This document shows positions 11,046 through 26,748 of a stretch of 64,000 nucleotides of DNA, piece after piece. The DNA comes from Campylobacteraceae bacterium. GTDB lineage: Bacteria; Campylobacterota; Campylobacteria; Campylobacterales; Arcobacteraceae. Each line of letters starts with the position of its first letter. Position 1 is the stretch's first letter. Location: assembly GCA_013215945.1 (NCBI GenBank), contig JABSOM010000001.1:186001-250000 (forward strand), read 5' to 3'. The translations under genes and the position numbers were made by a program. The notes beneath the pieces were generated by a model. The model had not been told where the DNA came from, searched no databases, and worked only from the letters and a program-made list of their open reading frames with translations.

Positions 11046-11060
11046 TAATAACGATTATCA
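11046..11060. promoter_or_regulatory. Fur box 1
   Basis: TAATAACGATTATCA matches 13 of 15 positions of the 7-1-7 Fur consensus TGATAATNATTATCA. It ends 15 nt before the start of the 20-aa peptide gene, so Fe-Fur binding here would block the peptide / DUF2325 / flavodoxin operon. Confidence 0.72.
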
Positions 11061-11151: not shown

Positions 11152-11490
11152 ATGAGTATATTAATTATAGGTGGAGATAAAATTTCACACATTCAGTCGA
11201 TGTTAGAAGATTTAGGTGCTAAAAATATCAATCATTGGGATGCAAGAAAAAAATCTTCTGCTCCAAAAAAGAAAATTCCTATTGATACAGATTGTATTGT
11301 AATGTTAACTTCTTTTTTAAATCACAATACAATGCTTAAGTATAAAACACAAGCAAAAAAATACAAAATACCTTTTATCTGTGCAAAACGTTCTATTTCA
11401 TGTGTATATGAAGAATATGTAAGAGTAATGGATCTTAAAGATTGTGCGTCTTGTTATGCGGATTGTGAAAGTTATAAAAATGCAAAATAA
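11152..11490 (+). CDS. DUF2325 family protein
   Basis: The 112-aa protein has the DUF2325 layout: an N-terminal beta-strand with glycines (ILIIGGDK), a central DCIVMLTSFLNHN segment and a Cys-containing KRSISCVYE motif. The C-terminus carries CASCYADC, a C-x2-C-x3-C cluster that may hold metal. The family's biochemical role is unknown. GGAG lies 5 nt before the ATG. It is the second gene of a Fur-boxed operon with flavodoxin, so a role in iron limitation or redox is likely. Confidence 0.8.
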   Translation: MSILIIGGDKISHIQSMLEDLGAKNINHWDARKKSSAPKKKIPIDTDCIVMLTSFLNHNTMLKYKTQAKKYKIPFICAKRSISCVYEEYVRVMDLKDCASCYADCESYKNAK

Positions 11491-12238
11491 CCTTATTGGA
11501 TTTTTTCAAGAACAAGAATCTTTGCCTTATTTTTTTGATCACTTTAATAATAAAGAAAAACTAAGACAATTATTTTTGTCCTTAAGTTCTAGTTTAATTA
11601 AAGAATATTATATTTTTTCCAAATATGAGCAGAAAACATTATGTAAATATACTTTTGAAGAAATTTTCAAATACAAAATAAATTCTTTAAAAGCTATTTC
11701 TTATATCAAACCTTTTGTAAAAAAAGAGTCTTTTATTTTCTGTTTGCATTCAACCCTAATTATAAATAACTACGTAAATAAAGAGATGAAAAAACAAATA
11801 TATGCAAGTTCTAAACTGTTGCCTATGGCAAAAGTTATTGCAACATGTTTTATAAACAACAAATTACAACTCTTTTTTGATAAAAATCTGCTTTTCCATG
11901 AATATGTATTAAATAAAATAAGAAAAATGCATAAAAATAATAAAGTTCTTGATAATGGGGATTCAATTTGTATTTTTAAAGAAGACGCTGTTCCTTTAAA
12001 AATTTATACCTCATGGAAAAAAATTGACCCTAAGAATTTAAAAATTGAAGATGATATCAATACTGCTATTAATTCAATTAAACAAAGTGAATTTAAACAA
12101 GTGTATTTGGTGTATCCAAAACTTGAAAATTTTAACAGACATATACAAATAAAAGTAGATGAACTAGAAGATAAAAATTACGAAATAAAAGTAGTACCTT
12201 ATTCTCTTAGATCAATTATACGAAATATACAAGGATAA
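11480..12238 (+). CDS. Unknown 252-aa protein in the Fur/flavodoxin operon
   Basis: The ATG at 11480 (overlapping the DUF2325 stop by 11 nt) is preferred over a start 36 nt upstream inside that gene. The protein is soluble, Lys-, Ile- and Phe-rich, with no signal peptide, no membrane helix and only four scattered Cys (no metal-site pattern). I do not recognise a fold. The gene ends 3 nt before flavodoxin, so it belongs to the same iron-regulated transcript. A role in iron-limited metabolism is suggested by context only. Confidence 0.8.
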   Translation: MQNNLIGFFQEQESLPYFFDHFNNKEKLRQLFLSLSSSLIKEYYIFSKYEQKTLCKYTFEEIFKYKINSLKAISYIKPFVKKESFIFCLHSTLIINNYVNKEMKKQIYASSKLLPMAKVIATCFINNKLQLFFDKNLLFHEYVLNKIRKMHKNNKVLDNGDSICIFKEDAVPLKIYTSWKKIDPKNLKIEDDINTAINSIKQSEFKQVYLVYPKLENFNRHIQIKVDELEDKNYEIKVVPYSLRSIIRNIQG

Positions 12239-12241
12239 ACA

Positions 12242-12739
12242 ATGGCTACAGCAATATTTTACGCTTCAAGCGTAGGAAATACAGAAGACATAGCAAAAAG
12301 ACTTTCAACAAAACTAGGAGATATAGATACCTATAATATCTGCGATGAAGGCATAGAGAAAATTAATAATTATGAAAAAATAATTTTTGGAGTATCTACT
12401 TGGGGAGATGGAGATTTACAAGATGATTGGGAAGATTCATGGGGAGATTTTTGTGATATAAATTTTTCTAATAAAACAATTGCTTTGTTTGGTTTAGGAG
12501 ATCAAGACTCGTATGCAGATACCTTCGTAGATGGTCTAGGAACTATGTATGAGGCATTAAAAGATACAGGGGCCAATATCATTGGTTTTACATCAGTTGA
12601 CGGTTTTGAGCATGAAGAATCAACAGCACAAATAGAAAATGAGTTTGTAGGTTTGGTTTTGGATGAAGACAATCAAGATGATTTAAGTGAAGAAAGAATT
12701 GATGCGTGGATTGATACGATTAAAGAGCGAATTTTATAA
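12242..12739 (+). CDS. fldA: Flavodoxin
   Basis: The 165-aa protein is a long-chain flavodoxin. It has the phosphate-binding loop ASSVGNTEDIAKRL near residue 9, the first FMN aromatic loop STWGDGDLQDDWEDSW near residue 57 and the second FMN loop GLGDQDSYADTFVDG near residue 92. It carries one electron through FMN and replaces ferredoxin when iron is scarce. AAGGAT lies 5 nt before the ATG. It closes a Fur-boxed operon and is followed by a strong terminator shared with the convergent fur gene. Confidence 0.97.
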   Translation: MATAIFYASSVGNTEDIAKRLSTKLGDIDTYNICDEGIEKINNYEKIIFGVSTWGDGDLQDDWEDSWGDFCDINFSNKTIALFGLGDQDSYADTFVDGLGTMYEALKDTGANIIGFTSVDGFEHEESTAQIENEFVGLVLDEDNQDDLSEERIDAWIDTIKERIL

Positions 12740-12771: not shown

Positions 12772-13218
12772 TTAGTCTTTGGCTTGACACTCTTGGCACA
12801 TTCCATATAACTGCATAGAATGAGAAGTAATTTTGAAATTATTTACTTTTGCAATATTATCTTGTCGTTTTTCTATTTCTTCGTCTAAAAATTCAATAAT
12901 TTTACCACAGGCTGTACAAATTAAATGATCATGATGTGCTTTTAGGTTTGCTTCATATTTTTTACCCTCAGTACCAAAAGCGATAGAAGTAATTAATTTT
13001 ACATCTTCTAAAAAAGAAAGTGCTCTGTAAACAGTTGCAATTCCAATATTAGACTCTTTATATGCAGATTTAATATGGTTATAAACATCTTCCGCTGTTA
13101 AATGTTCTTCAACACTCATAAGTACTCTAAGAACAATCTCACGTTGTTCAGTGTATTTTAAACCTTTTTGTTTAACAATTATTTTTAGTTGTTCTATTAC
13201 TTCGTCATGTTTTGACAT
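12772..13218 (-). CDS. fur: Ferric uptake regulator, Fur family (paralogue 1)
   Basis: The 148-aa protein has the N-terminal winged helix (YTEQREIVLRVL, and GIATVYRALSFLEDV as recognition region), the metal-binding HHDHLICTACGKIIEF segment with a C-x2-C zinc site, and a second C-x2-C at the C-terminus (MCQECQ). It represses iron genes when loaded with Fe2+. It is last in the minus-strand run from the ferrosome-like operon. A second Fur paralogue of equal length is at 19916. Which of the two is the global Fur and which has a narrower or peroxide-sensing role cannot be told. Confidence 0.95.
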   Translation of the reverse strand: MSKHDEVIEQLKIIVKQKGLKYTEQREIVLRVLMSVEEHLTAEDVYNHIKSAYKESNIGIATVYRALSFLEDVKLITSIAFGTEGKKYEANLKAHHDHLICTACGKIIEFLDEEIEKRQDNIAKVNNFKITSHSMQLYGMCQECQAKD

Positions 13219-13285: not shown

Positions 13286-13507
13286 TTATGCTTTGATTTT
13301 CTCTTTAGTTTTATTACTTACTTTATTTTTTTTCTGATATAACATATGATGCCACAATGCAAAACCACAAAAAGCAGCTCCTGCTATAATATGTGTTTTT
13401 TTTGCCAGTTTATTTTTCATAAACATTGATGTTACCACAGTAGCACCTAAGGTTGCGCTCATTGCAATTTTTGCAGCTTCTCTTTGAATTTCTAAATCAA
13501 GTCCCAT
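13286..13507 (-). CDS. Small membrane protein of the ferrosome-like operon
   Basis: The 73-aa protein has an amphipathic N-terminus, an Ala/Gly-rich helix around residues 15-30 and a second around 40-58 (HIIAGAAFCGFALWHHMLY) with two His, and a basic tail. AGGAG lies upstream of the ATG. Its start overlaps the stop of the 39-aa gene. I cannot name the family with confidence. Short Gly/Ala-rich helices recur in all small proteins of this operon, which fits membrane proteins that pack or scaffold a compartment. Confidence 0.75.
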   Translation of the reverse strand: MGLDLEIQREAAKIAMSATLGATVVTSMFMKNKLAKKTHIIAGAAFCGFALWHHMLYQKKNKVSNKTKEKIKA

Positions 13508-13616
13508 CTTTACGTCTCCTTTTACTTCTTTTAATCATAACTTTTGCACTTCCTTCAAGTGTTTTAATGCTTAAAGCAAAAGTTAAAATAGTAGCTAGGT
13601 GTAAAATAAATGGCAT
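13497..13616 (-). CDS. 39-aa membrane peptide between the P-type ATPase and the 73-aa protein
   Basis: A 39-codon frame starts at ATG 13616 with AAGGAAG 3 nt upstream and stops inside the start of the next gene (overlap of 11 nt), a sign of translational coupling. The product has one hydrophobic helix (FILHLATILTFALSI) followed by a strongly basic tail (KRSKRRRK), giving a single-pass topology. No family is recognised. Its place in a ferrosome-like operon makes it a candidate for the very small membrane proteins such operons carry. Confidence 0.6.
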   Translation of the reverse strand: MPFILHLATILTFALSIKTLEGSAKVMIKRSKRRRKDGT

Positions 13617-13690
13617 AAACTTCCTTTTGATAATAATAATCAGAATTCTATCTAAGAAAACTTAAATAGGAGAATGCCTTTTAAATTAAA

Positions 13691-15808
13691 CTACTTGTCT
13701 TTATTTAACTTAACACCTTTAATTGAATTTAATAATAAGGCAATGGTTGTTCCATTATGTAAAACAGCTGTAACAATGGGCGTAAAAAATCCCAAAGTAG
13801 CCCCCGCTAAAATAACTGAATTTACAGCCACGGTTGTATTAAAATTGTTGTTAATTAACTTCATTGTTTTATTTGCAAATTCTTTTGCTTCAACTACTGC
13901 TTCAATATCATCTTTTAATAAAGAAACATCAGCAGTAGCTTTTGCGATATCAGCGCCCTTACTCATAGATATACCTACATGAGCAGAAATTAAAGCAGGT
14001 GCATCATTAATACCATCACCAATAAATGCGACCTGATGCCCTTCTTTCATTAATTCTTTTACTATTCTTGCTTTATCTGTAGGTAAGAGACCAGCATATA
14101 CTTTATCAATTCCTAATTCACCAGAAATTAATTCAGCTTTTTCTTTAGTATCCCCTGTAAGCATAATAATATTTTTAACACCAAGCGTTCTTAAACGAGC
14201 AAGTGCTTCTTTTGTATTGTGTCTTAAGTGATCTGCTAAACCAATAGTTCCTAATAATTTCCCATCGTAAGAAATATACAGCAAGGTTCGTCCATCTTCT
14301 AAAGACTTTTCTATGGCTTTTTTATGCTTAGAAAAAGGAATCTTTTCATCATCTTCTAAAAAATGTCTTGAGCCTATAATCACTGTTTTTCCATTTACTT
14401 CTGTTTTAACACCATGGGCCACAATAAATTCGACTTCTTCATGATGCATATGTACAAAACCTTTTTGTTTTGCAGCTTTTACAACCGCTTCTGCAACAGG
14501 ATGAAAATAATGTTCTTCTGTACTGGCTGTTAAATTTAAAATATCATCTTCGCTCCAGGCTTTGTCATAAGAATCAATAGACATAACTTCTAGTTCCCCT
14601 GAGGTTAATGTTCCCGTTTTATCAAAAATAAATGTATCTGCAATACCTAATGCTTCAACTGCTTTTGCGCCTTTAATCATTATTCCATCATTCCCCGCTT
14701 TTGAAATAGTTGATTTAAATGCCACCGGTGTTGCTAGTTTTAAAGCACAAGAATAATCTGCTTGTAAAACAGAAGCTACACGTTCAAAATCACTGGAAAT
14801 TACATAAGAGAGACCAGCTAAACCCAAGGTTACTGGTACCAATTTATTTGCAAGTTTTGTTGCTTTTAACTGTACTGAACTTTGTTCGTTTAAAGAGTTT
14901 TCTATATAGTGTTTAATTCTTTGTGTTGCGGTATCATTACCAACACATTCTGCCCATATTTTTAAACGGCCATCTTCAATAACAGTACCAGAGATTACTC
15001 TATCCCCTCTACTTTTAGAAATAGGTTCTGCTTCTCCTGTCATAGATACTTGATTAACAGATGCTTCGCCTGAAACAACATGTCCATCAATGGGAATAGT
15101 ACTTCCAGCTCCAACAACAATGATATCACCAATTTTGATATCTTCTGTAGGAATTAGATTTTCTACAATTTTTCCATTTTCTTGCGTTTGTAACCAGGCT
15201 TCTTTTACATTTGGTTTTGATAACTCTTTTAATAAATCATCACTTTTATGTACTGTGGTTTCTTCTATATATTCGCCAAGCTCTAACATTGCATTGGTTG
15301 AATTTGCAGCCAAATAATCTTTTCTAAATACAGATACTGCAACGGCAGCACTTTCTAGAACCTTAGAAGTTAAACCTTCGCTAAATAATTCTTTAGTTCC
15401 ATCTATTAACATAGGAGCAGCTGCCCCTATAGTTAAAGAAGCTTTCAAAAAATCATTTGAAATAAAACGCTCTGAAATTAAAGCCGAAGATGCACGAATA
15501 ACACCATTTAGTGTAGGAGCATCTTCTTTTACATACGCCAAACTAAGTGAATTATAAGAACCATCGTTTAATAAATCATCAAGAGATAATTTATCTAGAA
15601 TAGTTTCAATTTCGTAACACACTTCAATATCTTCTATATTAAAAATGATAGAAGAGGCTTTTTTATTTACGCGTACTTTATTAACCCCTTTAATTTTTGA
15701 TAAATAAGAAGATAAAATATTGTCATCAATAAATTCTTCTTTTAACAAATTAAAACGGTATCTAACTCGTGATGCTGTTTGGTGGACTTTTTTAAAAGTA
15801 TTGCTCAT
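13691..15808 (-). CDS. P1B-type metal ATPase lacking CPC, ferrosome FezB-like
   Basis: The 705-aa pump has the P-type core: TGEAEP (257), DKTGT with phospho-Asp (396), the P1B HP pair in HYFHPVAEAVV (436) and GDGIND (597). In place of the usual Cys-Pro-Cys of copper or zinc pumps, the sixth-helix motif reads YSCALKLATP (352-361), as in the P1B-6 group linked to ferrosomes. The N-terminus holds an HMA2-like domain with H9 and the R14-x-R-x-R motif, shared with the protein at 17514. By analogy it moves iron into a membrane compartment. Membrane segments are short and hard to delimit. The pump class is sure; metal and compartment are inferred. Confidence 0.88.
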   Translation of the reverse strand: MSNTFKKVHQTASRVRYRFNLLKEEFIDDNILSSYLSKIKGVNKVRVNKKASSIIFNIEDIEVCYEIETILDKLSLDDLLNDGSYNSLSLAYVKEDAPTLNGVIRASSALISERFISNDFLKASLTIGAAAPMLIDGTKELFSEGLTSKVLESAAVAVSVFRKDYLAANSTNAMLELGEYIEETTVHKSDDLLKELSKPNVKEAWLQTQENGKIVENLIPTEDIKIGDIIVVGAGSTIPIDGHVVSGEASVNQVSMTGEAEPISKSRGDRVISGTVIEDGRLKIWAECVGNDTATQRIKHYIENSLNEQSSVQLKATKLANKLVPVTLGLAGLSYVISSDFERVASVLQADYSCALKLATPVAFKSTISKAGNDGIMIKGAKAVEALGIADTFIFDKTGTLTSGELEVMSIDSYDKAWSEDDILNLTASTEEHYFHPVAEAVVKAAKQKGFVHMHHEEVEFIVAHGVKTEVNGKTVIIGSRHFLEDDEKIPFSKHKKAIEKSLEDGRTLLYISYDGKLLGTIGLADHLRHNTKEALARLRTLGVKNIIMLTGDTKEKAELISGELGIDKVYAGLLPTDKARIVKELMKEGHQVAFIGDGINDAPALISAHVGISMSKGADIAKATADVSLLKDDIEAVVEAKEFANKTMKLINNNFNTTVAVNSVILAGATLGFFTPIVTAVLHNGTTIALLLNSIKGVKLNKDK

Positions 15809-15814
15809 TTTATT

Positions 15815-16135
15815 TTACTCGCCTGATTCGTCCATTTGAGCCCGTGCATCTTCATATCTTTCTTTTAGCTCTTCCATTCCAGCTTGAAAAAGTTCACTAC
15901 CTTTTGCTGCTGCATTCATCATTTTTTCTTGTGCACCTTTATTGGTTAAAAGAAAAGTCACGGCAGCACCAATAAGTGCTCCTTTTAAAAAATCACCTTG
16001 AGAAAAACCGCTAAGAGGATTTTGTACGTCTGAAGTATTATTATTTTGCGCTACATTATTTTGATTAATATAAGGATTAATTTGTGTATTTTTTGTTGTT
16101 CTAGAGTTTTCTATATTATTATCATATTTTTGCAT
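15815..16135 (-). CDS. YtxH-like small membrane protein of the ferrosome-like operon
   Basis: The 106-aa protein has an Asn/Gln-rich N-terminal tail (about 45 residues), one Gly/Ala-rich membrane helix (LKGALIGAAVTFLLTN near residue 55) and a charged C-terminal helix (EELKERYEDARAQMDESGE), the arrangement of YtxH-like proteins. It overlaps the upstream gene by one base (TAATG) and ends 6 nt before the ATPase gene. Its role is unknown; membrane scaffolding is plausible. Confidence 0.75.
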   Translation of the reverse strand: MQKYDNNIENSRTTKNTQINPYINQNNVAQNNNTSDVQNPLSGFSQGDFLKGALIGAAVTFLLTNKGAQEKMMNAAAKGSELFQAGMEELKERYEDARAQMDESGE

Positions 16136-16464
16136 TATTTTGCCTCATCTTGTGCATTGAATTTTTCATCTAAAATCTCAAGCGCATAAATACCAGCCAT
16201 TCCAATAGAAATAGCACTTAACGCTTTCATTAAACCGCCTTTTTGACCAAGGTAATTAGAAGTAGCAATTGCAGCACCTGTAGCAATTGCCCCTTGAGAT
16301 GTTTTTTTAATAGTATCTTTTAAAGCAAAGGTAGGTTTAACTTTTTTTTCCATAACTTTTTTATAATTAATGGTTCCAGAAATAAGTGCGGATGCTACGG
16401 CACCACTAACAATATGACCTAAAACATTTCTTTCATCACCCGTATTAATTAACAGTTCTTTCAT
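16135..16464 (-). CDS. Gly/Ala-rich membrane protein of the ferrosome-like operon
   Basis: The 109-aa protein has three Ala/Gly-rich hydrophobic stretches (HIVSGAVASALISGTI near 17, GAIATGAAIATSNYLG near 58, AISIGMAGIYALEIL near 84) separated by a Lys-rich loop. Small-residue helices of this kind pack tightly and recall magnetosome membrane proteins, though I see no specific homology. Its start overlaps the preceding stop and its stop overlaps the next start, so it is tightly coupled in the operon. Confidence 0.75.
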   Translation of the reverse strand: MKELLINTGDERNVLGHIVSGAVASALISGTINYKKVMEKKVKPTFALKDTIKKTSQGAIATGAAIATSNYLGQKGGLMKALSAISIGMAGIYALEILDEKFNAQDEAK

Positions 16465-16745
16465 TAACTTTCTTCCTTAGCTTTAACTTTTCGTACACGT
16501 TTTTTAGGTTCTTCTAAAAAAGTATTATCACTTGTTTCATTTTCAGATGTAAGCTCTTCTTTGCTTGTCATGATTTTATTTTTAACTTCATTTACAAGTT
16601 CTTTACTTTTTTCTAATGATGAACAGGCCAATGCTTTTGATTTATCAACAACCTTACATGCTTGTTCTTGTAGTTTATCGCTTTTAGTAAAAGCAACCAC
16701 TGCTCCTGCGCCTAACGCCAATCCTAATATAAATGGTAATGCCAT
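16464..16745 (-). CDS. Single-pass membrane protein with Cys-Lys-rich tail (DUF5132/YtxH-like)
   Basis: The 93-aa protein opens with a Gly/Ala-rich membrane helix (FILGLALGAGAVVAF, residues 5-19), then a long charged helix with two Cys, then an acidic segment and a Lys/Arg-rich end (KKRVRKVKAK). It resembles small DUF5132- or YtxH-like proteins. AGGAG precedes the ATG. It lies 3 nt after the ferritin-like gene. It may anchor or decorate a membrane compartment, which is inference from context. Confidence 0.75.
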   Translation of the reverse strand: MALPFILGLALGAGAVVAFTKSDKLQEQACKVVDKSKALACSSLEKSKELVNEVKNKIMTSKEELTSENETSDNTFLEEPKKRVRKVKAKEES

Positions 16746-16748
16746 AAC

Positions 16749-17513
16749 TTACTCCTCATTTTTATTTAAATAAGTACTTAAAAAAGCACTTGATGCTGCA
16801 CCTAGAGCAGCGCCTGAAACCATTGAAACATTCATTTTCCCTAATAACTGTGTTATTTTATCTTGATCAATATTTCCTGTTGCAATATCTTCTAATAAGT
16901 TTTGATACTCACTTGCTTTATTCATCATTTCTTCAGGATTAAACAAAGCAGAACCTGCATCTTTGTTGTAGTACTCTTTTACACAATTCCTAAACAAAGG
17001 AAGATGATTATTATAAGAAGCAGCTTGTAAACGATATAAAACATCTTTTACATCTTCTTCTTGGATATATTTTAGTAAATCATCGTACATTTTAATATTT
17101 ACTATTTCTGTAGCAACTCCTACTTCACAACATTCTATATACGTGTTAGGTACAGTAAGTTTATTTGTCCAGTCATTAAGAGGTACATCAATTTCATATT
17201 TTTCAAGCAAAGAAATTAAAACAGAATAATGAACAGCTTCTGCTTGTTTAATACTTGAAAATGGCTCAATATCACCTAAATTTTCAAGTATTGCACTATA
17301 GGTTTCATACGCTTGCATTTCATCATAAACAGCAATTCTTAGAACTTGTGAAAGTGCGGTTTCACTCAAGTTCAAATCTACACGTTTTTGCTCTAAATAT
17401 GAAAAATCAAGTTTTTCAACATTTTCATTATTCAACACTAGATCTTCTAAGTTTTCATTTGTTTCCAAATCTTGTGTAAAGGAACTCTCTTTTTCAAAAG
17501 TATTTGTTTTCAA
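16749..17513 (-). CDS. Ferritin-like diiron protein with C-terminal membrane helix
   Basis: The start is a TTG at 17513 right after the previous gene's stop, set by a perfect AGGAGG 8 nt upstream. The 254-aa protein has a four-helix ferritin-like region with metal-ligand-type residues in DEMQAYETY (E65), QAEAVHYSVL (E92, H95), VATEIVNIKMYDD (E136) and NNHLPLF (H170), close to the DUF2202 subgroup. A Gly/Ala-rich helix near the end (MVSGAALGAASSAFLSTYL) probably anchors it in a membrane. It may oxidise or buffer Fe2+ beside the ATPase at 13691. The fourth ligand set differs slightly from the family, so activity is uncertain. Confidence 0.78.
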   Translation of the reverse strand: MKTNTFEKESSFTQDLETNENLEDLVLNNENVEKLDFSYLEQKRVDLNLSETALSQVLRIAVYDEMQAYETYSAILENLGDIEPFSSIKQAEAVHYSVLISLLEKYEIDVPLNDWTNKLTVPNTYIECCEVGVATEIVNIKMYDDLLKYIQEEDVKDVLYRLQAASYNNHLPLFRNCVKEYYNKDAGSALFNPEEMMNKASEYQNLLEDIATGNIDQDKITQLLGKMNVSMVSGAALGAASSAFLSTYLNKNEE

Positions 17514-17828
17514 CTAAATAACCTCCTTTGCTAATGCATTCATCATTGAAGTAATTTCTTCAAGATTCTCACCCTTAATTAAATCTTCCCATAAAGACGA
17601 AGGGAAAATAACAGGATCATAGATAATAGTTACTGAACCAATTATTTTTTTAACTTTGATACTGGTGATACCATTGATTTTTTCAGGTATATTTTCTATG
17701 TCTTTAATCGTTATAGAAGAACTTTCATTTTTAATTTTTGAAGAAACTCTTACTCTTAATCGTCCAGGGGTGTGAGCAATTACGCTAAAATAACCAGCAA
17801 TCTTTATAATGTCTTCTGTTTTAATCAA
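17514..17828 (-). CDS. HMA2-like domain protein with H-x3-R-x-R-x-R motif (FezC-like candidate)
   Basis: The 104-aa protein starts at a TTG, with GAAGGA 6 nt upstream. It carries HTPGRLRVRV (residues 19-28) and a beta-alpha-beta-beta region ending GSVTIIYDP, the signature of HMA2-type domains, which lack the metal-binding CxxC of classical HMA domains. The ATPase at 13691 begins with a similar HQTASRVRYRF motif. Such Arg-rich N-terminal motifs are shared by proteins of ferrosome gene clusters. It probably works with the ATPase; exact role unknown. Confidence 0.78.
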   Translation of the reverse strand: MIKTEDIIKIAGYFSVIAHTPGRLRVRVSSKIKNESSSITIKDIENIPEKINGITSIKVKKIIGSVTIIYDPVIFPSSLWEDLIKGENLEEITSMMNALAKEVI

Positions 17829-17886
17829 TCTATATCCTTCTTATTCTTCAATATTTCCCGTATTCATCTTAAGTGGTGCTTAATAT

Positions 17887-19767
17887 CTACTTAGAATCAT
17901 TATCAATAATGACTTCTTTGTATATCACTTTATTTCTTCCCGTATTTTTTGCTTCATATAAAGCAGCATCGCATCGTTTATACACAGCAGAATACGTTTC
18001 CCCTTTTTCACAAAAAGTACAACCAATAGATATACTAATATCGATATTTATTTCTTCGTAAACAAAGTCATGTGTATCAACTATTGTTCTTATTCTGTTT
18101 GCTATACTAATAATATTATTACTGGAATAATCATTAATTAAAATCAAAAATTCTTCTCCTCCAAAACGTCCTAAAAGGTCTTCTTTTGACAATTCTTTCG
18201 AAATAAGAGATATCATATTTTTTAGAATAAAATCACCTGCTGGATGACCGTAAGTATCATTGACTTTTTTAAAATGATCAATATCTAAAATAAGAAAACA
18301 AAAGTCTCGTTTTTCAAGCCAGCGTTTAATATATGTTGTAATCGTATTTTTGTTGTAAGCATTAGTAAGTTCATCAATAGAAGCTTTATTTTCTAATGTC
18401 ATTATTTTTTTATTTACTGCTGAAACATCGTTCATACATATAAGATAATTCTTAATATCCAAACGTGTAATATCAAAAGTAAAATATTTATTGTCTTCAT
18501 CGATACATTTAAGCTGGGCAGGAACTTCTAAGGTTCCATACTTCTGTGCAACACGTATTAAGTTTGCGCTGGATGTTTCATCTAATAAAGCAATATTTGT
18601 CATAAAAGAGTCTTCTGAGTGAAAAATATCATTAAACTTTTGATTGGTACTTTGAATTTTATTACCATCTGTAATAAGAATAATATTTTTTTGACTGTCA
18701 AGAACAGATTGCAAAAAATCTTTTTCTTTTTGTAATTTTAAACTTTGTTGATAATTAATATGTTTAAACATTTGATTCATTTTTCGTGATAAATACGAAA
18801 TTTCATCATCATAATCAACTTTCAATTCCAAACTGGGACTTTCATTCTTTGAGGCTTTTTTTACCATAGTGGTTATGTATTCGATTCGGGAAGTAAATAA
18901 CTTTTGCATAAACACATAAAAAATAAGCAAAACAATAACAATCATGATTAGAAATACCATTAAAGTAATTTCAATATTATTCAATAAAAAATCAAAAATT
19001 TGTCTGTTACTTTTCATGCGGATGTAAAAACTCTTTTTTTCAAGATCATCGTATAGTTTTATATATGAAAAAACTTGGTCTTTACTTATCTTTTGAATAT
19101 CATAGTATATTTTTTTACCAAAGAAACTCAATTCTTTAATATTTTTATCATCGTAAAAAGAAATTAAGGAAATATATTCTTGTAATAATTCCCCAATTTC
19201 ATTTAACAAAGTAGCGTCTAGGGTTCTTGCTATAAAAACATATCCAATATGTTCATTTTTATACAATAATTTCTCAAGAACAAAAATTGTTTTTTCGTAA
19301 TTTAAGGTCATAAAAAAAACATCATTACTTTTTTTAATATAAGAAGATAAATCGTGTTTCATAAAAGTATTTAACTCTTCGGGAATAGATAAATATTCAT
19401 TGGAATTAATATCAAAACTGTTTCCATATATTTGTTTTTTATTTTTATCATATAAAACAAAATAACTTAGTTTTAAGTTTTGCATTAAATCATCTCTGTT
19501 AAGCATATACGCTTCAATTTCATTAACATCATTGTTTTTTACGGCTTTTGCTAAAACATCATTTAAAGAATATTCATAAGCAATACTTTTAATATGAAGG
19601 GAGGTTGAATCAAGAACATTTTGGAACTTCTTAATATTTTTTTCTATGAATTTATCTTCTAATACTTCTATCTTGTCTATTCTATTAACTAATATCATAC
19701 CTACAAGGCTTATAATTAATATGACAATAGTTAGTAAAAAAAGAATAGTTTTTTTACTTATTGACAT
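17887..19767 (-). CDS. Membrane diguanylate cyclase (sensor, PAS-like, GGDEF)
   Basis: The ATG at 19767 is preferred over a GTG two codons earlier. A membrane helix (about residues 6-28), a periplasmic dCache-like region (about 35-260), a second helix (about 265-290), a HAMP-like linker, a PAS-like domain (about 330-445) and a GGDEF domain follow. The active-site loop reads RFGGEEF, so the enzyme should make c-di-GMP from GTP. An RxxD inhibitory site is not obvious. It is the first gene after a Fur box (19813-19827) with a TATAAT between, and only 58 nt separate it from the HMA2 gene. A c-di-GMP enzyme therefore seems to be transcribed with the ferrosome-like genes under iron control. Confidence 0.92.
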   Translation of the reverse strand: MSISKKTILFLLTIVILIISLVGMILVNRIDKIEVLEDKFIEKNIKKFQNVLDSTSLHIKSIAYEYSLNDVLAKAVKNNDVNEIEAYMLNRDDLMQNLKLSYFVLYDKNKKQIYGNSFDINSNEYLSIPEELNTFMKHDLSSYIKKSNDVFFMTLNYEKTIFVLEKLLYKNEHIGYVFIARTLDATLLNEIGELLQEYISLISFYDDKNIKELSFFGKKIYYDIQKISKDQVFSYIKLYDDLEKKSFYIRMKSNRQIFDFLLNNIEITLMVFLIMIVIVLLIFYVFMQKLFTSRIEYITTMVKKASKNESPSLELKVDYDDEISYLSRKMNQMFKHINYQQSLKLQKEKDFLQSVLDSQKNIILITDGNKIQSTNQKFNDIFHSEDSFMTNIALLDETSSANLIRVAQKYGTLEVPAQLKCIDEDNKYFTFDITRLDIKNYLICMNDVSAVNKKIMTLENKASIDELTNAYNKNTITTYIKRWLEKRDFCFLILDIDHFKKVNDTYGHPAGDFILKNMISLISKELSKEDLLGRFGGEEFLILINDYSSNNIISIANRIRTIVDTHDFVYEEINIDISISIGCTFCEKGETYSAVYKRCDAALYEAKNTGRNKVIYKEVIIDNDSK

Positions 19768-19800
19768 TGGCACTCACTTTTTTTACAGAAGTATAACTTA

Positions 19801-19806
19801 ATTATA
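19801..19806 (-). promoter_or_regulatory. -10 element for the diguanylate cyclase / ferrosome-like operon
   Basis: TATAAT on the minus strand lies 33 nt before the ATG at 19767 and 6 nt downstream of Fur box 2, so bound Fur would cover the -35/spacer region. Confidence 0.55.
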
Positions 19807-19812
19807 TTAAAT

Positions 19813-19827
19813 TGATATTAATTATCA
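19813..19827. promoter_or_regulatory. Fur box 2
   Basis: TGATATTAATTATCA matches 14 of 15 positions of the 7-1-7 Fur consensus. It lies 46 nt upstream of the diguanylate cyclase start, at the head of the ferrosome-like operon. Confidence 0.82.
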
Positions 19828-19915: not shown

Positions 19916-20362
19916 TTACTGGCAGTTTTCGCATAAACCATATATTGTCATAACATGGTTTTTTAAATCAAAGTTATTTTCTTTTGCAACTATAATTTGT
20001 TGCGATTCAATAATTTCATCTGCAAACTCAATAATTTTGTGACAAGCTGTACATATCATATGATCATGATGTAAAGAAAGATTTAATTCATAACGTTTAG
20101 TTCCATCACCAATATCCAAAGAATTTACGATACTCATTTCTTCGAAAAACTTCATTGTTCTATAAACAGTTGCTATTCCCACATCAATATTGTATTCTCT
20201 TTTTACATAAGTAACAATATCCTCAGCAGTTAAATGATCTTCACTGTAATATAAATTTTTAAGAATATAATCTTTTTGTATAGAGTTTTTAAAACCTAGT
20301 TTAGATACATGCTCTTTAAAATTTTTTAAAAATGTATCAAAAGAAATGTCATATTTTTTCAC
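19916..20362 (-). CDS. Fur family regulator (paralogue 2)
   Basis: The 148-aa protein starts at a GTG with GGA about 10 nt upstream. It has the winged helix (NSIQKDYILKNLYY, GIATVYRTMKFFEEM), the HHDHMICTACHKIIEF metal segment and a C-terminal C-x2-C (LCENCQ). The N-terminus is ~9 residues longer before the first helix and diverges from paralogue 1. A near-perfect Fur box lies ~100 nt upstream in the divergent region, so it may be auto- or cross-regulated. It could be a second iron regulator or a PerR-like sensor; the sequence alone does not decide. Confidence 0.94.
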   Translation of the reverse strand: MKKYDISFDTFLKNFKEHVSKLGFKNSIQKDYILKNLYYSEDHLTAEDIVTYVKREYNIDVGIATVYRTMKFFEEMSIVNSLDIGDGTKRYELNLSLHHDHMICTACHKIIEFADEIIESQQIIVAKENNFDLKNHVMTIYGLCENCQ

Positions 20363-20571: not shown

Positions 20572-20979
20572 ATGTTAAGCCTAGCATTATTTGGAACAGT
20601 TGCAAGAAGTGCTCTTATTGGAGCCATTGTAACTAAAGCCATTGATACTTTAGTCATATCAAAAATAAACAATAAAATGGAAACAAAAAGATGGTTAAGA
20701 ACAACTAAACTTGAACTGTTTTCGAAAATATCAGAAGATTTATTGTCTTTAGATAATACAAATATTAATGAAAATATTAGAAGTATTAAACAAAATACAG
20801 CAAAAATCGTTTTATTGTTGGAAAATAAAAATTTAATACGAAAAATTGATGAGCATATTTTAGCCCTTCATAAACTAAGCAATAAAAAATTTGTTAATGA
20901 AGAAAAATTCGATAATCAAATTAAAATAATAGCAATGGATTTTATTATGTTGTTAAATAAAAATATTCAAAGAATATAA
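20572..20979 (+). CDS. Fur-boxed small membrane protein of unknown function
   Basis: The 135-aa protein has an N-terminal hydrophobic stretch (about residues 1-25, with AlaArg breaks) and a long Lys/Asn-rich helical region that is probably cytoplasmic. An AAAGGA site precedes the ATG. No family is recognised. A near-consensus Fur box and an extended -10 lie upstream, and the next gene downstream has its own Fur box, so it is a single iron-controlled unit. Confidence 0.75.
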   Translation: MLSLALFGTVARSALIGAIVTKAIDTLVISKINNKMETKRWLRTTKLELFSKISEDLLSLDNTNINENIRSIKQNTAKIVLLLENKNLIRKIDEHILALHKLSNKKFVNEEKFDNQIKIIAMDFIMLLNKNIQRI

Positions 20980-21006: not shown

Positions 21007-21021
21007 CGATAATTATTATCA
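21007..21021. promoter_or_regulatory. Fur box 4
   Basis: CGATAATTATTATCA matches 14 of 15 positions of the Fur consensus, 70 nt upstream of the imelysin lipoprotein gene that heads a five-gene operon. Confidence 0.82.
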
Positions 21022-21091: not shown

Positions 21092-22414
21092 ATGAACAAA
21101 ACAAAATTAATTGCTGCTTCAATTAGTATCGCTGCTGTATTGGCATTCTCTGGATGTACTACAAACAATATGTCAATGAATGACTCGAGTAAGACTTTAG
21201 TAGGTACCTATACTAATATTGCTACAAAAAATTATTCAGATGCATTAAAAGATGCAGTTACTTTAAGATTTCAAATTGATGCATTTGCTACAAACCCTAC
21301 AGATGCAAATTTAGCAAAAGCTAAAAAAGCATGGTTAGCTTCAAGAGAATCTTATGGACAAACAGAAATTTTTAGACTTTCAAATGGTCCAATTGATGCT
21401 GAAGAAGGTTGGATTGCTGAAGCATATGGTTCTTTAGAAGGACAATTAAATGCTTGGCCTTTAGATGAAAATATGATTGATTACACAACAGATGCTTCAG
21501 GTGTACGAACATCTGGAAATATTATTGATACAAAAGGTTCTTTTAATCCAGGCGGTGAAGATTCTTCAGCTGTAAATATTAAAAAAATCACAGTAAAAGC
21601 CTTAACTGCATTAAATGAAAATGGTGGAGATGCAAATGTTGCAACTGGATACCATGCTGTTGAGTTTATTTTATGGGGACAAGATCAAGATTATTCTAAC
21701 TTTATTAAAGATGGTATTACTTCTGGTGATTTAGCAGCAGGTCAACGACCATTAAGTGACTTTACTACTGATAAAGGTGCAAAAAGAAGATTAGCATTCT
21801 TAAAAGCTGCAAGTGAAAAAATTGTTCAAGATTTAAGCGTAGTTTCTTCAGCTTGGGCAAATAATGGTACTTATGCACAAGCATTAAACTCTAAATTAAG
21901 CGGTGATGATGCAAATAAAAACATTGATAGAAAAACTGCTTTAACTCAAATTTTTGCAGGAATGGGTGTATTTATTAAATCAGAATTAGCAAATGAAAGA
22001 ATTGCTGTTGCTGTATTAACACCATCAGAAGAAGATGAGCATTCTTGTTTTTCTGACAATACACACAGAGATATTGCACAAAATTATCAAGGTTTCAAAA
22101 ATATCTTAACAGGTACTTATGAAGGTCATTCATATGGAAAAGCTCCAATTGATGCACTGGATGCAGCTACAAGAGCTAAGGTTGAAACATTAATGTCTTC
22201 AATTGAAGATAAAATTGAATCAATTAACATAATTGCTGAAACGTCAAGACATTTTGATAAACAAATCAGAGCAAATGATCCTCAATCTATTGTAATTGTA
22301 AAATTAAAAAATGAAATGAGAAAATTAGGTGATCAAATGATTAATGTTGCAAATGCAAATGGAATCCAATTATCAGTAGAAGATGTTACTGATGCAGACG
22401 AAACAAAAATGTAA
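21092..22414 (+). CDS. Imelysin-family (M75/IrpA-like) lipoprotein
   Basis: The 440-aa protein has a lipoprotein signal (lipobox FSGC, Cys at 22) and the imelysin signature GYHAVEFILWGQDQ (GxHxxE) near residue 188. Imelysins of the IrpA type are iron-repressed outer-face or periplasmic proteins linked to iron uptake. Proteolytic activity is not expected despite the name. AAAGGA lies before the ATG and a Fur box 70 nt upstream. Its stop is immediately followed by the ATG of the di-haem protein gene. GC and Gly/Ala codon use is slightly higher than nearby genes, as for abundant proteins. Confidence 0.92.
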   Translation: MNKTKLIAASISIAAVLAFSGCTTNNMSMNDSSKTLVGTYTNIATKNYSDALKDAVTLRFQIDAFATNPTDANLAKAKKAWLASRESYGQTEIFRLSNGPIDAEEGWIAEAYGSLEGQLNAWPLDENMIDYTTDASGVRTSGNIIDTKGSFNPGGEDSSAVNIKKITVKALTALNENGGDANVATGYHAVEFILWGQDQDYSNFIKDGITSGDLAAGQRPLSDFTTDKGAKRRLAFLKAASEKIVQDLSVVSSAWANNGTYAQALNSKLSGDDANKNIDRKTALTQIFAGMGVFIKSELANERIAVAVLTPSEEDEHSCFSDNTHRDIAQNYQGFKNILTGTYEGHSYGKAPIDALDAATRAKVETLMSSIEDKIESINIIAETSRHFDKQIRANDPQSIVIVKLKNEMRKLGDQMINVANANGIQLSVEDVTDADETKM

Positions 22415-23746
22415 ATGAGAGTTAACGCTCATATATTAAGCCTTGTGACATTCTTTGTCACAGGGCTTTTTGCATTTGATACAAATTATTATACTCACCC
22501 ATCTAAAAATGCATTTACCACCCCTTATTCCAATTTAAGTAATACTGAAATTGATACAGCAATGCTTGGAAAAAGTTTTTTTAAAGTTCCTTGGATTTTA
22601 GCCCCAGGCGCAACTACTGCTAGAGATGGTTTAGGTCCTTTATTTAATGCAAATACCTGTATTTCCTGTCATCCCAATAATGCCCTTGGTTCTGTTTATA
22701 ATAAAAAGAATATTTCAAGAGCAATGGTTATTAGACTCTCAATTCCTAATTCAAAAAAAGATTTATCTTATTTACAAAGAGGCTTTACACCTGAACCTAC
22801 TTATGGGGCACAAATAGCAATTAATGGCACCCATGACGTTCCTTTTGAGGGGAAACTAAACATATCTTATGAAAATATTTACTCTACCTATCAAGATGGG
22901 CAAACAGTAGTATTGAGAAAACCTATCTATTCCTTAAAAGATTTAAATTATGGTCCTTTACATAAAGATACTATTATATCTATACGAAAAGCTCCTGCTC
23001 TTGTTGGGCTTGGATTAATAAACCTTTTAAGTGATGATGAAATATTGAAAAATCAAGATATTTATGATGAAAATAATGATGGCATATCAGGAGTTGCTAA
23101 TATCGTTTATTCAATAAAAGATAAAAAATTTATGATAGGAAAATATACCTATAAAGCAAGTGCTCCCAGTGTAGTACATCAAAGTGCTGCTGCTTTTATT
23201 AATGATATGGGACTAACGAGTTCTTATTTTCCAAGGGACAATTGTACAAAGTTCCAAATAAAGTGTAAAAATGCACCAAAAGGTAGACATAAATTAGATG
23301 TTCCCGATTTAAGATTAAATGCAGTTGCTTTTTATCTAAAACATCTAAAAGTACCTCTTGTAAAGACTAAAAACATACAAGGTGAAAAACTTTTTGCAAG
23401 CATTGGTTGTATATCCTGTCATGTAAGTGAACTAAAAACAAAAAACAATTTAATCATAAAACCTTTTTCTGATTTTTTGTTGCATGATATGGGTAAAGGG
23501 TTAAGTGATGGAAGAAGTGAATATAAAGCAGGTCCGCAAGAATGGAGAACTGCCCCTTTATGGGGTATTAATTCTTATAAAAAAGCGATAAAAAAGAACG
23601 TCGATTATTTACACGATGGAAGAGCTTCTACAATTGAAGAAGCCATTTTATGGCACGATGGTGAGGCAAAAAAAAGCAAAGAAGCATTTAGAAGCCTTAA
23701 TGAAAAAAACAGACAATACTTATTAAAGTATATAAAGGAACTCTAG
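22415..23746 (+). CDS. DUF1111 di-haem thiol oxidoreductase-like protein
   Basis: The 443-aa protein has a signal peptide (HILSLVTFFVTGLFA) and two c-type haem sites, CISCH near residue 83 and CISCH near residue 327, as in the DUF1111 family of large periplasmic c-type cytochromes. The family is regularly encoded beside imelysins in iron-repressed operons. The start directly follows the previous stop (TAAATG). A terminator-like hairpin lies inside its signal-peptide coding region (22438-22471). It likely handles electrons for iron acquisition, such as ferric reduction; the reaction is not known. Confidence 0.9.
   Translation: MRVNAHILSLVTFFVTGLFAFDTNYYTHPSKNAFTTPYSNLSNTEIDTAMLGKSFFKVPWILAPGATTARDGLGPLFNANTCISCHPNNALGSVYNKKNISRAMVIRLSIPNSKKDLSYLQRGFTPEPTYGAQIAINGTHDVPFEGKLNISYENIYSTYQDGQTVVLRKPIYSLKDLNYGPLHKDTIISIRKAPALVGLGLINLLSDDEILKNQDIYDENNDGISGVANIVYSIKDKKFMIGKYTYKASAPSVVHQSAAAFINDMGLTSSYFPRDNCTKFQIKCKNAPKGRHKLDVPDLRLNAVAFYLKHLKVPLVKTKNIQGEKLFASIGCISCHVSELKTKNNLIIKPFSDFLLHDMGKGLSDGRSEYKAGPQEWRTAPLWGINSYKKAIKKNVDYLHDGRASTIEEAILWHDGEAKKSKEAFRSLNEKNRQYLLKYIKEL
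22438..22471 (+). terminator. Terminator-like hairpin inside the DUF1111 gene start
   Basis: AAGCCTTGTGACA pairs with TGTCACAGGGCTT over 13 bp (one G-T wobble) around the loop TTCTT and runs into five Ts. It starts 24 nt past the imelysin stop and lies within codons 8-19 of the DUF1111 gene. It has the form of an intrinsic terminator and could make the lipoprotein message more abundant than the distal genes. Confidence 0.7.
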
Positions 23747-24714
23747 TGAAAAAGATATTTATAATACTCTTTATTGCGCTTGTTAATCTTAGTGCGCAAA
23801 CAAATGTAATGCAAGATTTATTAAAAAATGTTTTAATAAAAAATACCCAAGACAGTATAAATAAAACAGAAAAATTTATTAAAGATTTAGAAGAAAATAA
23901 AGAACTTGATGTATTAAAAAATGACTTTTCTAAGCTTTTAATATCTTGGAAAAAAGTTGAAGCATTTTATGTTGCAGCAGATCTTAATGAAGATAATATT
24001 GACACCCCAAGATATATTGATATTTTTCATAATTTAAAAGAAAATTTAAAAGAACATATGGACAGAGTTGTAGCTTCTAAAGACAGCTTGGATTTAGCTA
24101 TGTTTAAACATTCTTATAAAACAGTAAATGCCTTAGAAATCATTTTATTTGATGAATCTTTTACCCAAAGACACAGAAATATTTCAAAAATGATACTTGA
24201 AAATATTCTTCTAAGATTAAATCAAATTAATCATGTTTATCTTAATGACAGTGAAAGATTCTTACAAGAGTTTAAATGGAGCAATGATGTTATTATAAAT
24301 ATTTTAATTGACTCATCTTTTAAATTAAGAGATTGGAGAGTTGGTGATGTTGCAGGTTTATCAAGAAAGTACAGAGGAAAAAGTGATAATAGAAGAGCAG
24401 AATATTTTCTTAGCCAAAATTCCCTTCTTGTTATTAAAGCTATTTTAGACTCTCACAAAGAAGTAATGAATTCAGACACTTATGATTTTGGGGATATGCT
24501 TAATGACAATGATTATAAAAAAGAAGTTATATTAATTAGAAAGAGCATTCAAAGCGCTCAAGATAATTTAAAATATATTAAAAATGATGACTTTACAAAA
24601 AAGAATGTAAAAATACTTTACAAATCTTTGGATAATTTACATGTAACGTATTATAAAACATTAGTAAGTGCCCTTGGAGTTACTTCCAAAATCTTGGATG
24701 CAGATGGTGATTAA
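23746..24714 (+). CDS. Second imelysin-family protein
   Basis: The 322-aa protein starts at a GTG that overlaps the preceding TAG by one base. It has a signal peptide (FIILFIALVNLSAQ) and the imelysin helical fold with VNALEIILFDE in place of the GxHxxE signature: the His is replaced by Ala (N-A-L-E). DWRVGDVAGLSRKYRGKSDN marks the family's conserved central helix. It resembles the second imelysin found in imelysin-DUF1111-imelysin operons. The altered signature suggests a different ligand or a structural role. Confidence 0.85.
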   Translation: MKKIFIILFIALVNLSAQTNVMQDLLKNVLIKNTQDSINKTEKFIKDLEENKELDVLKNDFSKLLISWKKVEAFYVAADLNEDNIDTPRYIDIFHNLKENLKEHMDRVVASKDSLDLAMFKHSYKTVNALEIILFDESFTQRHRNISKMILENILLRLNQINHVYLNDSERFLQEFKWSNDVIINILIDSSFKLRDWRVGDVAGLSRKYRGKSDNRRAEYFLSQNSLLVIKAILDSHKEVMNSDTYDFGDMLNDNDYKKEVILIRKSIQSAQDNLKYIKNDDFTKKNVKILYKSLDNLHVTYYKTLVSALGVTSKILDADGD

Positions 24715-25610
24715 TGGATTTATTCTTAGGATTTGAGTATTTAATAGATGCACATAAAAGAATTTTTTATGTGTATTTATTCAGTTCACTGTTAATTAGC
24801 ATAGTATATTTGTATTTTCATCCAAAAGAGAAGAGAATTAACTTAAGCTCTAAACTTTGGCTGCACCCAAGTGCAAAAATAGATTATACGTACTTTTTTA
24901 TTTCAAATATAATTAAAATTCTTTTAATTTATCCGTTGGTATTATCTGCTAAAACAGTGGCATTATTTATTGCACTTTTTTTAATTGAAACCTTTGGATA
25001 TATAAGGCTTAGAACATCTTATGAACTTATATTATTTTTGTACACAATAAGTATTTTTATTTTTAGTGATTTTACACGATATCTGCTTCACCTAACTTTG
25101 CATAAAATTCCATTTTTATGGCGTTTTCATAAGGTTCACCATAGTGCAAAAGTATTAACACCCATGACATTTTATAGGGTTCATCCTCTTGAAAATATAT
25201 TATTTGGTTTTAGATATGCGTTAAGCATTGGTTTAGTAACGGGGGTTTTTATTTATTTTTTCGGTGCTAGAATTGATATTTATACAGTTTTGGGTGTAAA
25301 TATATTTGTTTTTTTATTCTCCATTTTGGGAAGTAATTTAAGACACAGCCATATAAAATTGTCCTATTATAAAAGTCTTGAAAATGTATTTATTTCACCT
25401 TTTATGCATCAACTTCACCACAGTACAAAATACCATAATAAAAACTTTGGCGGCTATTTGGCTATATGGGACAAAATATTTGATACACATCAAGGAAGTG
25501 AAAATATTAAAAGTGTAAAATTTGGATTAAACGATACAAAAAATTATAATTCAGTTTTAAAATTATTTTCAACTCCATTTAAAAACAAAGGAAAAAAAAA
25601 TGTTACTTAG
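24714..25610 (+). CDS. Sterol desaturase / fatty-acid hydroxylase family membrane protein
   Basis: The 298-aa protein has four to five membrane helices and the di-iron His clusters of the family: HLTLH (about 123), HKVHH (about 138) and HQLHH (about 228) with a following H-x-K-N. These enzymes hydroxylate or desaturate lipids with O2. The start overlaps the previous stop (TAATG). It lies inside the iron-repressed operon, which is odd because the enzyme itself needs two irons. Substrate unknown. Confidence 0.88.
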   Translation: MDLFLGFEYLIDAHKRIFYVYLFSSLLISIVYLYFHPKEKRINLSSKLWLHPSAKIDYTYFFISNIIKILLIYPLVLSAKTVALFIALFLIETFGYIRLRTSYELILFLYTISIFIFSDFTRYLLHLTLHKIPFLWRFHKVHHSAKVLTPMTFYRVHPLENILFGFRYALSIGLVTGVFIYFFGARIDIYTVLGVNIFVFLFSILGSNLRHSHIKLSYYKSLENVFISPFMHQLHHSTKYHNKNFGGYLAIWDKIFDTHQGSENIKSVKFGLNDTKNYNSVLKLFSTPFKNKGKKNVT

Positions 25611-26748
25611 ACCAATATTCCTAATTTCACTTGCTTTTTTATTTTTAGCCTGCGAAAATAAAGCACAGATAAAAATAATTGATACAAAAAAAGAAGAGTT
25701 AAGTTTAGGAAGAGCTTTATATTTTGATAAAAATCTTTCTTTAAACAAAACACAATCTTGTGCAACATGCCACAATCCGGAAGCTGGTTTCGTAGATGAC
25801 AGAGACAATGGAGTACAAGCGCAAGCCTCTTTAGGGGATAATGGCACTTCAATAGGAGATAGACAAGCTCCCAGTGCAGCTTATGCTATGTTCTCGCCCT
25901 CTTTTCATTATGACAAAAAGAAAAAAGAATATATTGGTGGACAATTTTGGGATGGAAGAGAAAAAACACTTGCAGGCCAAGCAGGAGGTCCACCTACTAA
26001 TCCGGATGAAATGGCTATGCCTTCAAAAAGTGCAATCGTTCGGCGTTTAAAAGAAAATTTATTTTATGTTGAAATTTTTAAAAAAGTATATGGAGAAAAT
26101 ATTTTCAAAAACGATGACACTGCGTATTTAAAAATGACAAAAGCCATTGAAGTTTTTGAGCAAAGTGACTTTTTTGCACCCTTTGATTCAAAATATGACA
26201 GATATTTAGAAGGAAGATATGATTTAACACCTTTAGAAGACTTAGGTCGCTCACTTTTTTATTCAAATGCAAATACCAATTGCAGTAGCTGTCACACTTT
26301 AAAAAAAGAAGATCAGAAAAGGGAAACTTTTTCAAATTATGAATTTCATAATATTGGAACCCCAATTAATACTGCATTACGAGCTAAAAATGGAGTGAGA
26401 AAAAAAGATGATGGTTTACTTAATAATCCTTTGGTAAAAGATATTAAACATCAAGGAAAATACAAAGTCCCAACGCTAAGAAATGTGGCAATTACTTCAC
26501 CTTATATGCATAATGGTGTGTTTTCTGATTTAAAAACAGTAATACTGTTTTATGATAAATTCAATAATAAAAAGAATATTATAAACCCTGAAACAAATAA
26601 AGCATGGAGAAATGCGGAGTGGGAAAATACGATTAATAAAAAAGATTTAAAAATGAAAAAACTAAGTGAGAGAAAAGTAGATGCTTTAGTCGCGTTTCTT
26701 AAACTTCTTACTGATAAAAGATATGAACATCTTTTATTAAAAAAATAA
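25600..26748 (+). CDS. Di-haem cytochrome c peroxidase / MauG-like lipoprotein
   Basis: The 382-aa protein has a lipobox (FLFLAC, Cys at 18) and two haem sites, CATCH near residue 52 and CSSCH near residue 230, with the family's TLRNVAITSPYMHNG (axial Met/Tyr region) near 300. It belongs to the CcpA/MauG group and reduces H2O2 or oxidises a protein or metal partner. It overlaps the hydroxylase gene by 11 nt and ends the imelysin operon. Confidence 0.92.
   Translation: MLLRPIFLISLAFLFLACENKAQIKIIDTKKEELSLGRALYFDKNLSLNKTQSCATCHNPEAGFVDDRDNGVQAQASLGDNGTSIGDRQAPSAAYAMFSPSFHYDKKKKEYIGGQFWDGREKTLAGQAGGPPTNPDEMAMPSKSAIVRRLKENLFYVEIFKKVYGENIFKNDDTAYLKMTKAIEVFEQSDFFAPFDSKYDRYLEGRYDLTPLEDLGRSLFYSNANTNCSSCHTLKKEDQKRETFSNYEFHNIGTPINTALRAKNGVRKKDDGLLNNPLVKDIKHQGKYKVPTLRNVAITSPYMHNGVFSDLKTVILFYDKFNNKKNIINPETNKAWRNAEWENTINKKDLKMKKLSERKVDALVAFLKLLTDKRYEHLLLKK

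Follow-up and report, generated by a model that had tools for sequence, protein, structure and literature searches.

A probable ferrosome (fez) gene cluster of an Arcobacteraceae bacterium encodes a predicted ferritin-like domain joined to a fez anchor

Ferrosomes and ferritins are regarded as separate routes of iron storage. Ferrosome genes are known by experiment from Desulfovibrio magneticus and Clostridioides difficile (Grant 2022, Pi 2023, via PMC11334425, PMC12574912). The D. magneticus RS-1 cluster has three genes only, fezABC, with no MamC-, YtxH- or ferritin-like gene beside them. Its FezA is a small Gly-rich membrane protein, its FezB is reported to be a P1B-6 ATPase (Grant 2022), and its FezC combines an HMA2 domain and a cytochrome segment in one protein; FezC has elsewhere been shown to bind heme b (PMC11334425). 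C. difficile has two or three genes, including the fezA-fezB pair CD630_05910-05920 (PMC11651100), again without a ferritin-like or MamC-like gene, and Fur control has been reported for it. A longer operon of six fez genes has been published for R. palustris (RPA2333-2338; PMC12016538). S. putrefaciens also has a six-gene fez operon. The open-access literature searched yielded no account of fez for Arcobacter or Campylobacter, although figures in Grant 2022 and Pi 2023 may already show part of the distribution.

The stretch of DNA analyzed here, called the window, comprises 64,000 nucleotides of contig JABSOM010000001.1 from an Arcobacteraceae bacterium. It contains a conserved core of eight genes in one direction (13286-17828, minus strand), which is likely to be a fez cluster related to the iron-storage gene sets found elsewhere. 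In order, the core encodes an HMA2 protein, the ferritin-like fusion protein called FER below, FezA-like, MamC-like and YtxH-like proteins, a FezB-type ATPase, a 39-aa peptide and a FezC-like protein (Table 1). Some 20 related genomes, from Arcobacteraceae and further families of the Campylobacterales, share the order, with the 39-aa and 73-aa genes missing or unrecognized in some of the more distant ones. All genes named in a first-pass annotation of the sequence were confirmed, and its ferrosome-like (fez-type) reading is supported by the FezB clade, the FezC-, MamC- and YtxH-like partners, the Fur-type boxes and the FeoAB neighbors. A fez cluster was also seen on an Arcobacter plasmid from chicken meat (L064, CP129951, 5046-9522), so the cluster can be plasmid-borne.

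Table 1. Genes and putative regulatory sites of the fez locus and its flanks, in window positions
Feature	Position	Strand	Evidence or remark
HMA2-type protein, 104 aa, no CxxC, GRLRVR motif	17514..17828	-	PF19991 5e-7; first core gene
FER: DUF2202 ferritin-like domain + C-terminal fez anchor, 254 aa	16749..17513	-	DUF2202 and MJ0754 matches, predicted fold
FezA-like, 93 aa: Gly-rich N-terminal transmembrane segment + charged helix	16464..16745	-	FezA profile 1e-6, 23 columns
MamC-like two-helix membrane protein, 109 aa	16135..16464	-	NF038051 1.2e-4
YtxH-like small protein, 106 aa	15815..16135	-	PF12732 in homologues
FezB-type P1B ATPase, 705 aa, DYSCALKLATP + LHNGTT motifs	13691..15808	-	tree 100/98, AU tests
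Conserved 39-aa membrane peptide gene	13497..13616	-	orthologues in ~14 relatives
FezC-like cytochrome half, 73 aa, invariant His39 + His53	13286..13507	-	profile-profile match to FezC set
Membrane diguanylate cyclase, CHASE4-like sensor + GGDEF	17887..19773	-	loosely linked, not core
Fur-family regulator, beside fez locus in many relatives	19916..20362	-	
Fur-family regulator, downstream, closest to Helicobacter-type Fur	12772..13218	-	
Fur box TGATATTAATTATCA, 13/14 to 7-1-7 palindrome	19813..19827	-	-54 of diguanylate cyclase
Fur-like site TGATAATGATTCTAA	17891..17905	-	-77 of HMA2 gene
Fur-type palindrome just before 39-aa gene	13628..13642	-	exact 14/14 in most Arcobacteraceae relatives
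Direct repeats TAAG-N6-TTAA	17868..17894	-	kept in 17/20 loci

In the ATPase, DYSCALKLATP replaces the CPC of copper and zinc pumps. None of the motifs CPC, SPC, TPC or CPH occurs in the window ATPase, its catalytic motifs are intact, and its N-terminus gives a weak HMA_2 match (PF19991, 8e-7). A tree of 64 ATPases placed it in a clade of 37, together with D. magneticus FezB and the Clostridioides-type FezB (support 100/98), and nearly all members of the clade have the motif D-[YF]-[SA]-C. With D. magneticus FezB the window protein further shares D-[FY]-SCA-[LI]-KL-x-x-P. The C. difficile FezB lies in a different subclade. We take the reference genome carrying fezA, fezB and fezC in a row to be that of D. 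magneticus RS-1, since it was the sole one of six candidates with magnetochrome domains, and we likewise take two genomes with a fezA-fezB pair to be Clostridioides, an identity inferred from the pair layout. The clade is taken to be the published P1B-6 class, since D. magneticus FezB falls inside it.

An alternative would be a pump for Mn, Zn or Cu of the CtpC or CopA kind. In its favor, generic NCBIfam P1B models (Cd, Cu) match the catalytic core of the ATPase. However, the CtpC-like and CPC-pump groupings, which the first-pass annotation had named as the outcome that would refute it, were not found and are rejected (AU 1e-36 and 8e-49). The tree, the AU tests and the absence of a CPC-type motif rule out a CtpC-like or CopA-like identity; the Fur, Feo, DUF2202 and imelysin neighbors all point to iron, and a pump for another metal is very improbable.

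Other ATPases were seen in the same search. Some fez loci of Arcobacteraceae and Desulfovibrionaceae have a second P1B ATPase (CPCAT/CPCST) directly before the HMA2 gene (L046 6957-9110, L047, L055, L234, L235), and these ATPases from the two families form one group in the tree. Cyanobacteria and Alphaproteobacteria have a group sister to FezB, marked by a TGIR/TGLR motif (L074, L077, L084, L139), and some of its members carry an N-terminal HMA2-type motif.

The layout of the locus was compared with six-gene operons using Azospirillum brasilense and Vibrio harveyi, without the R. palustris or S. putrefaciens sequences. An operon on an Azospirillum plasmid has six genes, the number in the published six-gene operons: HMA2 plus cytochrome, HMA2, FezA-like, a small protein in the MamC-like place, YtxH and the ATPase. 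In V. harveyi and Desulfovibrionaceae the genes encode HMA2, a Pro/Met-rich protein, MamC-like, YtxH-like and FezB proteins. For HMA2, the MamC-like place, YtxH-like and FezB the gene order of the window is that of the Azospirillum and Vibrio loci, which fits a six-gene layout; with Azospirillum it also has in common FezC and, on a weak match, a FezA-like gene. The window differs from the six-gene operons in having only the cytochrome half of FezC, placed at the 3' end with its own Fur-type site, and in the additional genes for a ferritin-like protein and a 39-aa peptide. The locus is probably a six-gene-type fez system in a form typical of Campylobacterota.

The first-pass annotation had described a P1B ATPase without CPC, an HMA2-like partner and a motif of the R-x-R-x-R type shared by both, and all of this held, the motif being part of the HMA_2 domain. 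The HMA_2 match of the 104-aa protein is just over the curated cut-off. Its orthologues occupy the same place in all relatives with a contig reaching that far, and are also found in the fez loci of Azospirillum, Vibrio and Desulfovibrionaceae. Its proposed role as FezC did not hold; it is encoded by a separate HMA2 gene, and the FezC role belongs to the 73-aa protein. This protein is the cytochrome half of FezC encoded alone, without the HMA2 domain. In a profile-profile comparison the 73-aa set matched a FezC set including D. magneticus (probability 98.2, E 3e-14), the homologous part of the D. magneticus protein being its C-terminal heme segment. Lys36, His39, Gly43 and His53 are invariant in the family, and 12 of 14 homologues match DUF4405 (best 0.003). 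A FezC would be expected to be a DUF4405-like heme protein with two conserved His, which is met for the cytochrome half only. The 39-aa gene runs into the beginning of the FezC-like gene, its orthologues sitting between FezB and the 73-aa gene.

For the other small proteins the evidence is weaker, and five small Gly/Ala-rich membrane proteins, as claimed at first, were only partly confirmed. The genes are real, but by simple hydropathy only the proteins of 93, 109 and 39 aa are clear membrane proteins; those of 106 and 73 aa are less clear, with amphipathic or Gly/Ala-rich segments. The match of the 93-aa protein to the FezA set extends only across a Gly-rich segment. NF038051 (MamC) is matched by 21 of 25 fez homologues of the 109-aa protein (best 5.6e-15). 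As in magnetosome MamC, this is a two-helix membrane protein; however, none of the 25 homologues reaches the curated MamC cut-off of 100 bits, the best having 55.4 bits. The 109-aa protein is therefore described as homologous to MamC but not as MamC, and MamC-like is a statement about the family. YtxH (PF12732) is matched by 8 of 21 homologues of the 106-aa protein (best 2e-4) but not by the window member itself, and the Azospirillum counterpart is annotated as YtxH.

The new part of the locus is FER, in which a ferritin-like domain (DUF2202, about residues 50-180) is joined to a C-terminal fez anchor (about 193-248). DUF2202 is matched by 18 of 21 FER homologues (best 3e-8), and FER matches MJ0754 (DUF2202, PDB 3q4n) by sequence at 5e-7. 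FER has no match to PF00210 (ferritin/bacterioferritin). The fold of the domain is predicted by AlphaFold2 to be a four-helix, ferritin-like one (pLDDT 78.6, pTM 0.67), with only one of five models good and the full-length model uninformative (pLDDT 45.7). The best structural match of the domain by Foldseek is MJ0754 (TM 0.79-0.81), followed by bacterioferritins (TM ~0.8). E65, E92xxH95, E136 and H170 hardly vary. Where a classical di-iron site has its fourth carboxylate, FER has Asn168, and according to the alignment MJ0754 lacks this carboxylate too.

A membrane-anchored ferritin-like protein had been claimed in the first-pass annotation. This held, and with its fez-specific C-terminal anchor the protein amounts to more than one additional gene in the cluster. 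Homology to the C-terminal end of the Pro/Met-rich fez protein in other phyla extends over the final 55 residues (hhalign, E 2e-7 with full alignments and 4e-10 with tails), and for 19 of the 21 FER tails the score is higher than that of every one of 1260 composition-shuffled tails. MJ0754, in contrast, matches the ferritin-like domain only and not the anchor, and DUF2202 hits on plasmids outside Arcobacter likewise match the ferritin-like part alone. The simplest reading, inferred from sequence alone, is that an existing fez protein exchanged its N-terminus for a DUF2202 domain. Ferroxidase activity of FER, and the side of the membrane on which its domain lies (possibly the lumen), are likewise inferred.

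FER was found almost only in Campylobacterota. It is present in 126 of 397 species of the phylum and the ATPase in 136; in 124 of these 136 FER is present and adjacent to FezB. One gammaproteobacterial MAG (L072) also has FER, and its FezB nests among those of Campylobacterota. No FER was found in 247 Desulfovibrionaceae, 149 of them with a FezB-type ATPase, but this is a weak negative since a positive control was lacking.

Iron regulation was assessed by searching the window for 7-1-7 Fur palindromes. Eight with at most two mismatches were found, versus 2.0 expected, and none of 100 shuffles reached eight; seven of the eight are located at 11-25 kb. The near-perfect Fur box first placed at the head of the operon is real, but it could not be upheld as the core operon's own, as it precedes the diguanylate cyclase gene. 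This gene was rejected as an operon member, since it adjoins the core only within the genus and in a single other relative, and is elsewhere or absent in the rest. The Fur-type sites at 17891 and 13628 are better placed for the core and for the 39-aa/FezC genes, respectively, than that at 19813, although there are no binding data. In 10 of 20 loci, against 0.03 expected, TGATAATGA occurs some 75 bases upstream of the HMA2 gene; it is followed by the TAAG-N6-TTAA repeats, kept in 17 of 20 loci with 1.3 expected, whose regulator is unidentified. The palindrome immediately ahead of the 39-aa gene suggests a separate Fur-type promoter for the FezC-like gene. On either side of the window's fez copy there is a Fur-family gene.

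Further genes of the neighborhood were recorded. Genes for an imelysin, a di-heme oxidoreductase, a second imelysin, a fatty-acid-hydroxylase-like protein and a MauG-type peroxidase lie at 21092-26748 with a Fur palindrome at 21007-21021, probably a second Fur-controlled iron locus beside fez. A 135-aa protein of no known family (20572-20979) is also near fez in several relatives (L035, L036, L041). On the other side, at 11152-12739, are genes for DUF2325, for a protein of 264 aa and for a flavodoxin, and position 11046 has a Fur-like site. An Acetoanaerobium-order genome (L236) likewise has genes resembling DUF2325 and flavodoxin immediately downstream of its fezAB, and the Arcobacter plasmid (L064) has a DUF2325 gene next to fez.

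In five relatives FeoA and FeoB genes are divergent from the fez locus. No PF00210 protein (ferritin, bacterioferritin, Dps) was found at E 1e-6 in four genomes of the window's genus, which are drafts of 93-99% completeness. Below that threshold, the window's genome gave a single match, to a rubrerythrin-type protein, and no encapsulin was found in that genome. The absence of ferritin holds for the genus and not for the family, because most other fez-bearing relatives have ferritin.

The locus could also encode an iron efflux or detoxification pump, with the FezB-type ATPase in the cytoplasmic membrane exporting Fe(II) to the periplasm, FER as a guard, the small proteins as subunits and no compartment. 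Several P1B ATPase classes export metals, topology and vesicles cannot be shown from sequence, and many relatives also have ferritin, so that storage alone may not be the full reason for retention of the locus. On the other hand, Fur-type boxes, meaning repression at high iron, and adjoining FeoAB uptake genes fit storage or reuse and not the export of an excess, conservation extends to the other small fez genes, and experiments have shown the relatives in D. magneticus and C. difficile to be ferrosome genes. We consider efflux unlikely. A relict or repurposed cluster, serving for example membrane organization or heme handling without iron storage, is suggested by the split FezC, by the protein with a changed N-terminal domain and by a broken ATPase reading frame in one relative (G033, L040). 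However, in the window and in almost every relative no gene is broken and the order stays fixed over many genera, regulatory sites are conserved and catalytic motifs are intact, which leaves very little room for this explanation.

The likely and best explanation overall remains a fez system working as follows. Iron scarcity would cause Fur to release the fez promoters, and internal membranes, given their shape by the small FezA-, MamC- and YtxH-like proteins, would receive the FezB-type ATPase. At the cytosolic face iron would be presented by the HMA2 protein together with FezB's HMA2 N-terminus, and FezB would pump Fe(II) into the vesicle. There the membrane-anchored ferritin-like domain may oxidize or nucleate iron, and the FezC-like heme protein may move electrons across the membrane, reversing or balancing the oxidation. 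Vesicle formation and iron as the cargo are inferred, there being no granule, transport or binding data, and a related iron compartment in Campylobacterota, as the first-pass annotation had proposed, is likewise inferred and not shown. The missing fourth carboxylate in FER and the FezA match of only 23 columns limit this explanation. Whether Campylobacterota possess a hybrid iron store, a lipid-bounded ferrosome with an anchored ferritin-like domain that oxidizes or nucleates iron, and whether this is the only recognizable iron store in the window's genus, could at present be answered either way with equal justification.

Through its MamC-like subunit the locus links ferrosomes with magnetosomes, and it hints at what many genes annotated merely as heavy-metal ATPase, DUF2202 or hypothetical may do. 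The fez protein with the ferritin-like domain, present in about one third of the sampled Campylobacterota species, offers a defined gene to delete. If FER works as predicted, two strategies of iron storage would be combined in one fez protein.
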